64,000 bases of DNA from Natronolimnohabitans sp. A-GB9 (GTDB lineage Archaea > Halobacteriota > Halobacteria > Halobacteriales > Natrialbaceae), in contig NZ_JAVDDV010000010.1 of NCBI RefSeq assembly GCF_030848565.1, positions 62,001 to 126,000 of the forward strand, in the 5' to 3' direction. A program made the translations under genes and the position numbers. Shown here piece by piece: positions 14,015-56,061 of the stretch; position 1 is the stretch's first letter; each line of letters begins with the position of its first letter. The notes beneath the pieces are model-generated. The model had not been told where the DNA came from. It made no database searches and worked only from the letters and a program-made list of their open reading frames with translations.

Positions 14015-14091
14015 GACCGACTCGCTCTCCTCGAGGCGACGACGCCGAACGAAATCGCGGACGTCTGGACAGTAGACATCGTAGAACACGG

Positions 14092-14203
14092 GCCGGTGGA
14101 GGGATTTGCCGCTCACGAGTTTGCTCGCGGCAAAAGTAAGCCGGTGGAGGGATTTGAACCACGGTCGGAGCAACCTCCTCCCTGATTCAAATCCCTCCAC
14201 GGC
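14092..14203. repeat. Partial duplicates of the tRNA-Thr 3' end
   Basis: The 3' terminal part of the neighbouring tRNA-Thr gene (on the plus strand GCCGGTGGAGGGATTT...) appears at 14092-14107, again as a 21-nt copy at 14140-14160, and once inverted at 14185-14203. None can fold as a full tRNA. Each direct copy is preceded by a related flank (TTGCTCG/TTCGTCG ... CAAAAG/CAGAAG). Confidence 0.8.
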
Positions 14204-14241
14204 TCGCTTCGCTCCTCACGTGATGTTCGTCGCAGAAGACA

Positions 14242-14315
14242 AGCCGGTGGAGGGATTTGAACCCTCGACCTAATCCTTACGAAGGATTCGCTCTGCCAGT
14301 CTGAGCTACACCGGC
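14242..14315 (-). tRNA. tRNA-Thr (anticodon CGT)
   Basis: The minus strand folds as a 74-nt tRNA. The acceptor pairs GCCGGTG with CACCGGC and the D-arm has GTAGCTCAGACTGGCAGAGC. The anticodon stem ATCC/GGAT encloses the loop TTCGTAA, giving anticodon CGT, and the T-arm contains GGTTCAAATCC. The discriminator is U, as in archaeal tRNA-Thr. CCA is not encoded and no intron is seen. Confidence 0.95.
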
Positions 14316-53253: not shown

Positions 53254-54069
53254 TCAGTACGCCTCCGGGTCGACCTCCAGGATGAGCTCGCCACCCTTGA
53301 ACGCCCGGACGAGCCCGTCGCTCTCCGAGAGCACGATCGAAATCGCGTTCGTGTCGCGTGTGATCGCGCCCCCGGCCATATGCCGCGCACCCAACCCCTT
53401 CGGGATGTCGACGCCTTCCGCCGACGGCTCGAGGTAGCGATACGCCGAAACGATCTTGCCCGCATCGGAGATGACGAACGCGCCGTCGAGCCGCGAGAAC
53501 TCCTTTAGCATGACGTTGACGATCGGATCGCCGACGTGGACGTGGGACTTCTCGAAGGGGTTGTACGACAGCGGGCGCGATTTGTTCATCACCTTGCCCG
53601 CGTCGCCGACGACGAACAGCGCGCCGACGGGCTTTCCCTTCTGGCCTTTCTTACCGAGTTCGATCGCCAGCTCCAACACCGCCTTGATCACCTCCGGCTC
53701 CGCGCGGGACTTGACGAACAGATCGTAGATCCCCGTATGTGTCTCCGCGTCCGCCCGGACCCGAGAGACGGTGTCGACCCCGTCGGCGAACATGTTGGTC
53801 GCACACACCAGCTCGTCGCCGTCCTCGATCACGTCCTGCTCGATGGCGCCCTCGATCGCGAACTTGATCCGCTCTTTGACGTCGTCGAACGCGAGTGGCA
53901 GTTCGACGAACGTCTCGGCGCCAACGGTGTCTTCGGTTCCGACGACGACGAGGTCGAAGTCGCCGTCGACGTCGCTGAAACGCTCGTGGAACGATCCGCT
54001 CGGTGAAAAGAGGAGGACAGCATCCGCACTGGTAAAGAGATCTCCGAACACATCATCTAACCCGGCCAT
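53254..54069 (-). CDS. dacZ: Diadenylate cyclase DacZ (c-di-AMP synthase)
   Basis: A 271-residue protein with an N-terminal alpha/beta region and a C-terminal DAC (DisA_N) domain. The catalytic DGA sits in RLDGAFVISDAGK (residues about 195-197) and the RHxA-type ATP motif in LGARHMAGGAITRDT (residues about 227-234). It makes c-di-AMP from two ATP; in Haloferax DacZ is essential and its dosage is tightly controlled. Operonic with the mscS-like gene. The ATG at 54069 follows a TATA-like stretch. Confidence 0.95.
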   Translation of the reverse strand: MAGLDDVFGDLFTSADAVLLFSPSGSFHERFSDVDGDFDLVVVGTEDTVGAETFVELPLAFDDVKERIKFAIEGAIEQDVIEDGDELVCATNMFADGVDTVSRVRADAETHTGIYDLFVKSRAEPEVIKAVLELAIELGKKGQKGKPVGALFVVGDAGKVMNKSRPLSYNPFEKSHVHVGDPIVNVMLKEFSRLDGAFVISDAGKIVSAYRYLEPSAEGVDIPKGLGARHMAGGAITRDTNAISIVLSESDGLVRAFKGGELILEVDPEAY

Positions 54070-54195
54070 TGATCATACAAGCTGTTCCCGCGCGAATAAG
54101 CGTTTTGGGGTGTCTGACGCGTGTCTGTCGTTTTCCTCACAGTATCTGGCCGTAACAGCGGTATCTCGCCCGCTTGCCGACGACTTGTCTCATCT

Positions 54196-54503
54196 GGATT
54201 GTGGTACCGATGTACCAGCACAACCGCGACCCGGCTGCGGTTGCACCGGGCCTGATACTGTCGGACAGCAGTCAGTGAGACATCGGTCGCGAACTCGCGG
54301 CCGTCACCCACGGGACGGCCGCAGTCGCGCGACCGATCGTCGAATCGTGCTATCCAACAGTATGACGTCCGGGAGTCCGTATCAAGCGTCCTCATACTTC
54401 CGGACAAAAGTCAGTAAACACCCGATCGCGCCTCGACGCCTGTCGCGTTCCGCGACAGCGTCTCGAGTGCGATCGGTGTGTGCATCGTTTTGTCCGGTAG
54501 TAT
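54196..54503. repeat. Cluster of three palindromic elements
   Basis: About 54196-54250 is a partial copy of the 33621 element interior. 54255-54363 is a full 109-bp element (ends ATACTGTCGGACAG/CTATCCAACAGTAT) whose interior matches the reverse complement of 13905-14014. 54394-54503 is another 110-bp element (ends ATACTTCCGGACAA/TTGTCCGGTAGTAT) with a different interior stem (CTGTCGCG/CGCGACAG). The three follow one another between dacZ and the tRNA-Leu array. Confidence 0.75.
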
Positions 54504-54577
54504 CACTCGAGACAAACGGCGTCGACGGCCGTGACTCCTCGAGTTCGACCCGCTGAACGCAGTCTCCGCTCGAGACG

Positions 54578-54836
54578 TTGCTCGTCACAGAACCATGCGC
54601 GGGACCGGATTCGAACCGCGAGGACATCGCTTCGCTCGTCCTCTGGGCCGCGAATCCGCCCCGATCCGAACCTGCGACTCGCGGTATTGCTCGTCGCAGA
54701 ACCATGCGCGGGACCGGATTCGAACCGCGAGGACATCGCTTCGCTCGTCCTCTGGGCCGCGAATCCGCCCCGATCCGAACCTGCGACTCGCGGTATTGCT
54801 CGTCGCAGAACCATGCGCGGGACCGGATTCGAACCG
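54578..54836. repeat. 109-bp tandem array built on the tRNA-Leu 3' end
   Basis: Two nearly identical 109-bp units (54578-54686, 54687-54795) and a 41-bp partial third unit. Each contains CAGAACCATGCGCGGGACCGGATTCGAACCG, whose GCGCGGGACCGGATTCGAACC is the 3' end of the tRNA-Leu gene at 54934 read on the plus strand. The tRNA 3' end thus occurs four times at 54597, 54706, 54815 and 54935. No unit can fold as a full tRNA. Confidence 0.9.
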
Positions 54837-54933
54837 AAGCAAGACGATCACGCTCGCTACGCTCGAGTGCTGCGACTTGCAGGGTTCGAATCGGTCCTGC
54901 TCCCTCGCTCGTTCGCGAAGCTCACTCGCTCAG

Positions 54934-55018
54934 TGCGCGGGACCGGATTCGAACCGGCGGACCCCTACGGGACAGCGTCCTAAGCGCTGCGCCGTTGGCC
55001 TAGCTTGGCTACCCGCGC
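54934..55018 (-). tRNA. tRNA-Leu (anticodon TAG)
   Basis: The minus strand folds as an 85-nt class II tRNA. The acceptor pairs GCGCGGG with CCCGCGC and the D-arm begins TAGCCAAGC. The anticodon stem CAGCG/CGCTG encloses the loop CTTAGGA, giving anticodon TAG. The long variable arm is TCCCGTAGGGG and the T-arm contains GGTTCGAATCC. The discriminator is A as expected for Leu. CCA is not encoded. Confidence 0.95.
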
Positions 55019-55064
55019 TCACACCTACGTTTTCACGAATCGAGTAAGTAGTTGTCGATACGAA

Positions 55065-55238
55065 CTACTGCTGTTTCACTGGCTCCTCGGGCGACCAGTC
55101 CGGCGGCACGATAAACGTCACGTGCTCCGAATCGCGTAGCTGGTGGAGTTCCGCGGCTTGTTCGGCCAGCGATCGGTTCCGATACGGCATCTCGAGGCCG
55201 CAACCGGTACAGACGAGCTTGCAGGTTGGCTCTTTCAT
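55065..55238 (-). CDS. Small Cys-containing haloarchaeal protein
   Basis: A 57-residue protein with KLVCTGCGLEMPYRNRSLAEQAAELHQLRDSEHVTFIVPPDWSPEE. A CxxC pair and later His residues could bind one zinc. The pattern, one knuckle then a helix and an acidic tail, is common in haloarchaeal micro-proteins of unknown role. The ATG at 55238 is the natural start; the frame upstream is Arg-rich and non-coding in style. Confidence 0.6.
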   Translation of the reverse strand: MKEPTCKLVCTGCGLEMPYRNRSLAEQAAELHQLRDSEHVTFIVPPDWSPEEPVKQQ

Positions 55239-55492
55239 GTCGGGATAGCGTCCACCGAAACCGAACGGCGACTGTCTACCCAGCGGTTGGTGAACGCGGT
55301 GCTTTAGTAGTCGTATCCTAGTCCGCGATCCGGTAGTCGTCAATTATACTAGTCGTTCGTAGCTGAACGTTGTCCAGCGTAGCACCGGATTGGAGGGTTT
55401 GTTCACTGAATATTCGGTTCGAGAGGGTAAAACATATCTCCGACGTGACAACGGAGCGTAGCTTTATCCGCGCCGCCCCGTTACCCCGTCGT

Positions 55493-55801
55493 ATGCACAG
55501 TGCCCGGGACCGGATCGAATACGAACAGTGGCTCGAGGAACTCGAGCAGATTGCCGATCGGCTCGACCTCTCGAGTGACGCACGCACCTACGCAGCCGAC
55601 CTCTTTCTGATGGACGTCCCCGAAGCGGACCGTTCGAAACGGGCCGTACTCGCTGCGAGCGTCTACGCCGGCTCGCTCGTCGCCGGCGACGGACGAACGC
55701 AAAGCGACGTCGCCGACGCGGCGGACGTCTCACGGCTCTCGATCCAGTCGCGATGGAAGGAACTGCTCGAGCAAGCCGGACTCGAGCCGCCACGGTGGTA
55801 G
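55493..55801 (+). CDS. TFB-like single cyclin-repeat protein
   Basis: A 102-residue protein that resembles the second cyclin repeat of transcription factor B: ADRLDLSSDARTYAADLFL, then RAVLAASVYAGSLVAGDGRTQSDVADAADVSRLSIQSRWKELLEQAGL, with the last helix-turn-helix matching the BRE-contacting part. The Zn ribbon, B-finger and first repeat are absent. It could modulate TFB/promoter contacts, or be a domain that evolved to bind DNA alone. Its TAG stop begins a palindromic-element end. Confidence 0.78.
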   Translation: MHSARDRIEYEQWLEELEQIADRLDLSSDARTYAADLFLMDVPEADRSKRAVLAASVYAGSLVAGDGRTQSDVADAADVSRLSIQSRWKELLEQAGLEPPRW

Positions 55802-55824
55802 TACTGACTGCTGTCCGGCAGTAT
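55799..55824. repeat. Half palindromic element, stop-codon anchored
   Basis: TAGTACTGACTGCTGTCCGGCAGTAT. The TAG is the stop of the TFB-like gene and the rest equals the right end of the 13905 element. The other half is not found within 150 nt. Confidence 0.65.
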
Positions 55825-56061
55825 ACGTAGACTGGACCGACAGTTTCGATCGTTCCGGCCGAATAGTCGGTCACTGAGCCGTCGTAAGTGTACGATACGA
55901 GAACGAAACGGCCACACGCGACGTCGGATTTCCGTCGGCGGCAAGGTGGTGGTGGTGGTGGTGGAGCACCTGGGGTCGGTGTCGGTGTCTGCTCGGACGA
56001 CACGCTATCGTAGTACGACCGCGACCCGTTTCCGGGTGTCCCGAGACCGATGGCGATCCGG
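55825..56061. other. Intergenic region with a (GGT)6 microsatellite
   Basis: The spacer between the TFB-like gene and the convergent coaD gene contains six GGT triplets at 55945-55962. Open frames crossing it encode only homopolymers (His or Pro runs on the minus strand) and are not credible genes. Nothing else is seen. Confidence 0.6.

Follow-up and report, generated by a model that had tools for sequence, protein, structure and literature searches.

The array behind tRNA-Leu(TAG) in our window, a 64,000-nucleotide stretch of the Natronolimnohabitans sp. A-GB9 genome, exemplifies a family of palindromic, tRNA-specific repeats that are tethered to tRNA 3' ends across the Halobacteriales. With a probability of about 0.52, we consider these units to be mainly DNA-level and self-perpetuating in origin, that is, a by-product at tRNA ends. 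We did not find a description of this unit family in open-licence papers or in the family libraries that were searched.

In the window, the final 22 nt of tRNA-Leu(TAG) (GGTTCGAATCCGGTCCCGCGCA) recur exactly in three further copies behind the gene, at spacings of 120, 109 and 109 bp, and each of the three units closes with such a copy (Table 1). The first-pass annotation had placed four copies of GCGCGGGACCGGATTCGAACC at 54597, 54706, 54815 and 54935 and had taken the last one as the true tRNA 3' end. A pattern search bore out these positions, and both ARAGORN and Rfam agree that the copy at 54935 is the genuine 3' end of tRNA-Leu(TAG). The description of the units as nearly identical 109-bp blocks holds for units 2 and 3, which are identical and are a recent tandem copy, but the tRNA-proximal unit 1 is 120 bp long and has a different sequence. 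TRF reported a repeat at 54578-54836 with a period of 109, 2.4 copies, 99% matches and a score of 511; beyond unit 3, we found only decayed sequence and then the flank. By searching the whole 4.3-Mb genome for the tail pattern with up to 2 mismatches, we recovered the four array sites and tRNA-Leu(GAG) only, while a control pattern gave no match, and thus a chance origin of the array copies is excluded. A coding repeat was rejected, the 109-bp unit not being divisible by three and the overlapping ORFs being antisense readings of the T-arm. The window ORFs lying antisense over the array (54531-54983, 54578-55003 and 54595-55047, plus strand) give RDRIRT/GTGFEP-like peptides, which are translated tRNA T-arms, and are likely spurious gene predictions. 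A plasmid or phage origin was rejected as well: there was no plasmid match, the matches in phages were trivial ones to the T-arm only, and the exact tail was not in viral contigs.

Table 1. Features of the tRNA-Leu(TAG) and tRNA-Thr(CGT) arrays in the window, and paired tip motifs elsewhere in the genomic data.
Feature	Position	Strand	Remarks
tRNA-Leu(TAG)	54933/54934-55018	minus	ARAGORN and Rfam
Master copy of the 22-nt tail	54934-54955	minus	3' end of tRNA-Leu(TAG)
Unit 1, 120 bp	54814-54933	minus	adjoins tRNA-Leu(TAG); model R1, 81.3 bits, E 4.6e-14
Unit 1, inverted T-arm/acceptor arm GCAGGACC-GATTCGAACC	54883-54900	minus	complements the tail copy, one base missing
Unit 1, hairpin 2	54836-54882	minus	tip GAGC-GTA-GCGA: GNA triloop, tandem G-A
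Unit 1, tail copy GGTTCGAATCCGGTCCCGCGCA	54814-54835	minus	exact
Unit 2, 109 bp	54705-54813	minus	model R1, 80.1 bits
Unit 2, hairpin 1, CTGCGAC-GAGCAATACCGCGA-GTCGCAG	54781-54808	minus	
Unit 2, degenerate inverted arm CGGGGCGGATTCGCGGCC	54755-54772	minus	
Unit 2, hairpin 2, GAGGAC-GAGCGAAGCGAT-GTCCTC	54726-54756	minus	
Unit 2, tail copy	54705-54726	minus	exact
Unit 3, 109 bp	54596-54704	minus	identical to unit 2; tail copy 54596-54617
tRNA-Thr(CGT)	14242-14315	minus	sole other tRNA in the window; unit downstream
tRNA-Thr(CGT) unit	14139-14241	minus	exact own-tail copy at 14139-14158
tRNA-Thr(CGT), decayed second tail copy	about 14091-14110	minus	3 mismatches
YGARCGNAGYGAR pairs	G000 C3:8146/8232, C10:52979/53066, C17:25041/25128, C27:21575/21662, C28:2083/2170		

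Each unit is a block with the tRNA's own tail (T-loop to discriminator) on both sides, in which hairpin 1, an inverted tRNA-specific T-arm, hairpin 2 and the tail copy follow one another. The inverted arm copies the T-arm, together with some of the acceptor, imperfectly. As this arm base-pairs with the tail, the second half of the unit folds into one long hairpin of arm, hairpin 2 and tail; in other words, one strand folds as an imperfect inverted repeat with a duplex core. The arms are specific to their tRNA, since an inverted-arm score of at least 20 was reached by 45 of 67 non-Leu units with their own tail versus 10 of 67 with the tail of another tRNA. Overall, the inverted arms bear 75 single-base deletions, located at several positions. 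Hairpin 1 covaries strongly across 18 Leu(TAG) units from different genera. Scored against the named structure, stem covariation amounted to 50 double-changed cells compared to 18 expected; none of 500 shuffles reached 50, and the signal collapsed when the partner was slid by 1-3 columns. Hairpin 2 has conserved internal mismatches (C-A at one position), and hairpins 2 of a given sequence type stand behind many kinds of tRNA, as many as 11 for a single type. Folding as RNA gave a z-score of -2.6, and folding of the window units with DNA parameters gave moderate z-scores of -1.2 to -2.8.

The hairpin tips share a motif, GARC-GNA-GYGA (flanked form YGARC-GNA-GYGAR), with 138 occurrences over 224 distinct units compared to 0.2 in shuffles. 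The N of the GNA triloop takes any base and the closing pair alternates (GC/GC 78, AC/GT 51). As DNA, minihairpins made of a GNA triloop and G-C pairs are known for their extraordinary stability (PMC4686876). The motif was rejected as a tRNA-only mark: it is enriched genome-wide, yet it is found elsewhere too (61 versus 34 in the control). Away from mapped tRNA genes, we noticed YGARCGNAGYGAR copies of the tip motif in opposite orientation, 86-87 bp apart every time (Table 1), which probably represent an IS or MITE family with the same hairpin tip.

The units are not an oddity of tRNA-Leu(TAG) but stand behind many tRNAs. In a survey of nearly all tRNAs of three genomes, from which a neighbouring full tRNA-Asp gene was left out, copies of the gene's own 3' end (T-loop to discriminator) were found downstream of 18/42, 20/42 and 14/43 tRNA genes. 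The set of equipped tRNAs differs between the three genomes, and about half of the tRNAs are devoid of units. At a maximum of 1 mismatch in 18, an own-tail copy was present for 17 of 44 tRNA calls, a count that takes in one neighbouring full tRNA-Asp gene, versus 4 of 1858 cross-tRNA pairs. A covariance model (R1) built from the Leu(TAG) units gave about 27 matches below E 0.03 on the source genome, almost all of them directly behind tRNAs of many kinds. Behind each unit-bearing tRNA, the unit closes with that tRNA's own tail, and it is because of these own-tail ends that a model built on Leu(TAG) finds units behind so many tRNAs. By the criterion of the first-pass annotation, its reading would be refuted if this array were also conserved at unrelated places that lack a tRNA; the tail-bearing units stand at tRNA 3' ends.

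The same arrangement extends over most of the order. By searching 60 relatives together with the source genome, we found the Leu(TAG) tail pattern in 54 genomes, many of which repeat it behind tRNA-Leu(TAG). Among 104 named Leu(TAG) loci, 66 had one to three extra copies and 30 had none, the other 8 being too short to judge. A comparison of the locus between sister strains had been proposed for array length and inserted islands: array length does vary between relatives and islands occur at some loci, but the islands are not the source of the units. The model detected units in all 11 sampled Halobacteriales and, being biased to haloarchaeal sequence so that more distant relatives could be missed, in 0 of 69 other genomes of the phylum. 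At E<=1e-6, 31 of 40 Halobacteriales had units (25 of 27 when good-quality genomes were considered). An own-tail search made without the model covered 26 tRNAs from three other members of the phylum and was negative for all of them. On these two negative results, the latter and that of the haloarchaea-biased model, a general archaeal feature was rejected.

Then, we compared arrays between close relatives. Congeners whose upstream DNA is 91-97% identical differ in the number of units and in which hairpin 1 goes with which hairpin 2. The arrays of the Natronococcus loci L158 and L165 differ by exactly one unit period, and the joint lies inside a 10-nt TTCGAATCAG common to the two arms. In Natrialba (L100/L135) and in Haloarcula arrays, hairpin-1 and hairpin-2 partners were re-joined. 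None of the congener comparisons allowed us to reconstruct a template-switch event, or a clean empty/filled pair with the full history of a unit. Concerted evolution at Leu(TAG) is clear at one T-stem position, where 8 of 8 copies behind tRNAs with the variant match it, and mixed at a T-loop position (6 copies own, 11 majority), the latter counts carrying an ascertainment bias from the exact-match fetch.

Directly beyond the array and on the same strand lies a diadenylate cyclase gene (DacZ: PF19294, PF02457; 53254-54069, minus strand). A similar gene starts after the Leu(TAG) arrays of several other Natrialbaceae, and the array-diadenylate cyclase locus looks syntenic. Palindromic MITE-like elements with ends ATACTGYCGGACAGCAGTCAGT / CTGTCCGGCAGTAT are also found nearby (54255-54370, 54390-54505 and 55800-55830), as well as at L044, L057 and L058, behind other tRNA units of the genome.

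Several observations suggest that the units live and change at the DNA level. tRNA genes are highly transcribed, and strong transcription would expose single strand at these loci, where the arrays are probably transcribed together with the tRNA. Slippage or unequal recombination between tails and arms, serving as direct repeats, could add, remove and re-join units and keep the tails tRNA-like, while hairpins with ultra-stable DNA tips would promote template switching, by which arm complementarity could be restored. Such an explanation would cover the upkeep and change of units, not the first tail copy or inverted arm at a tRNA. Template switching in DNA replication is known to build stems and to repair them without passing through G-U intermediates (PMC8794818), and quasi-palindrome mutations are reported for highly transcribed yeast DNA (PMC3820800).

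Selection on an RNA should make G-U more acceptable than A-C on the strand that is transcribed. Such a preference was seen in the control, the tRNA acceptor stems of the same loci (G-T 26, A-C 2), and was absent from the unit stems, with G-T 8 and A-C 10 in hairpin 1, G-T 7 and A-C 10 at the loop-closing pair and G-T 21 and A-C 49 in the arm-tail stem. Compared to the acceptor stems, Fisher tests gave P 4e-4 for hairpin 1 and P 3e-4 for the loop-closing pair, values that are optimistic since the units are related by descent. The mismatch counts themselves are modest. Mismatch counts in hairpin 2 were rejected for this purpose and left unused, being confounded by its conserved internal loops. 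We therefore favour a DNA-level process, because the stems have no G-U preference, template switching can repair them and the GNA tips are stable as DNA. Some observations point the other way. The conserved loops and the order-wide persistence suggest recognition or function rather than a pure by-product, the conserved mismatches of hairpin 2 look like a specific structure, and the DNA-parameter z-scores of the window units are just moderate.

The two alternatives listed by the first-pass annotation, that the 3' segment itself was amplified or that an RNA feature lies downstream, both stay live. In the latter case, the units would be part of the tRNA primary transcript and tRNase Z, an enzyme that recognises tRNA tails, would cut at each copy. 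The hairpin RNA released, 75-150 nt long and tRNA-like at its 3' end, might for example serve as a decoy or regulator in tRNA 3' processing or in starvation responses. We regard such an RtT-like RNA as the chief rival to the DNA-level reading, though less likely than the latter. It would be in line with the layout of E. coli tyrT/tyrV, where rttR closes with a tail copy, with the reported release of RtT RNA from tRNA operon transcripts and its link to amino-acid limitation (PMC4986893), with the conserved loops and strong covariation, and with the RNA fold. T4 runs are also displaced to behind the array: they occur within 60 nt past the last tail in 36 of 153 cases, compared to 11/153 at 100-160 nt further on and 15/153 in the first 60 nt behind the tRNA, although the enrichment outside Leu(TAG) is borderline (P 0.05-0.10). 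Rare inside units, these runs also fit a selected, co-transcribed RNA, and co-transcription of the units with the tRNA is plausible. However, the lack of a G-U preference, unlike in tRNA stems of the same genomes, the genome-to-genome variation in which tRNAs carry units, with about half carrying none, and the fact that hairpin 1 differs in kind between families all speak against an RNA product. A known RNA family was rejected too, for want of a gathering-threshold or convincing Rfam match: scanning 54000-55600 at E<=1 returned the tRNA and a sub-threshold P4 match only, and the RtT model (RF00391) had no match.

Another reading, which we find rather doubtful, is that these class-wide tRNA-tethered DNA palindromes, with tRNA-specific ends and at many tRNA kinds, are moved or maintained by a dedicated mechanism, either copying templated by the tRNA end or a recombinase that recognises the T-loop and works on folded single strands; they would then form a new repeat system keeping spare tRNA tails behind the genes. 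Unlikely, in our view, is that the folded single strand, with inverted T-arm and tail around hairpin 2, would be the substrate of a putative tyrosine recombinase cutting in the T-loop, the units then being gene-less cassettes inserted behind the tRNA, comparable to integron attC or CTXphi attP. The tail copy does start at the T-loop, the arm-tail duplex core often has one bulged base on the tail side (the single-base arm deletions), whole units are gained or lost and the joints fall within the T-loop box of the arms, one hairpin-2 type can be found at many tRNA kinds and the tips are d(GNA); but hairpin 2 was never noticed inverted, the position of the bulge varies, and slippage at short direct repeats explains the joints as well. 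Less probable still is the origin proposed by the first-pass annotation, in which elements that target the 3' end of the tRNA would integrate and excise imperfectly, each copy being an attR that they left behind. Haloarchaeal elements do target tRNA ends (PMC8371274, PMC3119063), integrases adjoin or sit within some arrays (L009, L032, L132, L156, L189), and a search for integrases at tRNA-Leu, also suggested there, revealed integrase-like genes directly behind tRNA-Leu(TAG) in several haloarchaea (by reading frame only). Yet the far end of the inserted stretches, where it was found, is a partial tRNA of about 60 nt that starts at the anticodon loop (CTTAGGACGC...), whereas the array copies run from the T-loop to the 3' end only and follow hairpin 2, in no case a partial tRNA. 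The units are independent of the Leu(TAG) att identity block, and where they accompany such a scar they generally lie beyond it, as host flank. Moreover, about 20 different tRNAs in a genome are followed by units of one common hairpin architecture, with the tail of the respective tRNA in each case, and the window units are 109-120 bp of hairpins without integrase remnant, as had been noted. The integration-scar reading is contradicted for Leu(TAG), and integrase scars were rejected as the source of the array, the true attR sites that were found being different from the array copies. As for a collapsed or expanded repeat or a misread tRNA, the assembly is a draft in 72 contigs and two of its 109-bp units are identical, but similar arrays are present in many independently sequenced genomes, some of them complete, so that misassembly is unlikely as the cause; we give an artefact practically no weight and regard it as refuted for the feature itself, the copy number given here being that of the 72-contig draft assembly.

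Elements between tail copies were found in only a few genomes, other than the source. Integrases lie inside the arrays of L009/L235 and L032/L236, and both in Haloarcula argentinensis and in the genome G036 the integrase comes after the first unit. At L235 (Haloarcula argentinensis, G055:C14), a remnant of a ~2.4-kb element with an integrase-like gene lies between two Leu(TAG) units. In Haloarcula japonica (L132/L196), the tRNA is directly followed by a left end of this kind, and a partial tRNA together with a unit is located at the far end. Units can be a landing place for elements or can separate them without being their product, and elements may use or become trapped among the tail copies.

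If our preferred reading, DNA-level upkeep, and the family itself hold true, most of an archaeal order has a repeat system at a third to half of its tRNA genes. The arrays would then offer a natural replicated experiment on compensatory changes in hairpins, opposing template switching to RNA selection. They would also bear on the concerted evolution of tRNA 3' ends, on tRNA ends as integration hot spots and on the unexplained E. coli tyrT/RtT arrays, and would explain why haloarchaeal annotation contains spurious ORFs and falsely called att sites.

Among known arrangements, the 178-bp repeats of E. coli tyrT/tyrV come closest: there, tandem units downstream of a tRNA each close with an exact copy of the tRNA 3' end, as do those of the window array. 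At tyrT, 19-nt tail copies lie at +159, +337 and +515; one 178-bp unit is annotated as the small RNA rttR (RttR, RtT RNA), and the locus also has tpr. Unlike the haloarchaeal units, these repeats are bacterial, occupy one tRNA locus, are 178 bp long and have a tail copy without the T-loop, and searching the tyrT repeats for an inverted arm complementary to the tail was negative. The haloarchaeal units are RtT-like in layout, while the Rfam model and the inverted arm place them outside RtT. Elements that target tRNAs, such as the SNJ2- and HF1-type haloarchaeal proviruses, likewise repeat the 3' part of a tRNA downstream of the intact gene, but they carry integrases, and the Leu(TAG) scar starts from the anticodon loop and has the units outside it. 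Integron attC and CTXphi attP are imperfect inverted repeats with bulged bases around a variable hairpin and form modular arrays behind a fixed site. The array units share with them, as a structural resemblance only, the imperfect inverted repeat and the modular layout; unlike them, they have no cassette genes and their core is a tRNA T-arm. Finally, REP/BIME and MITEs are also short, palindromic, non-coding units in many copies, whereas the array units are fixed at tRNA 3' ends and their own ends match the tRNA behind which they stand.
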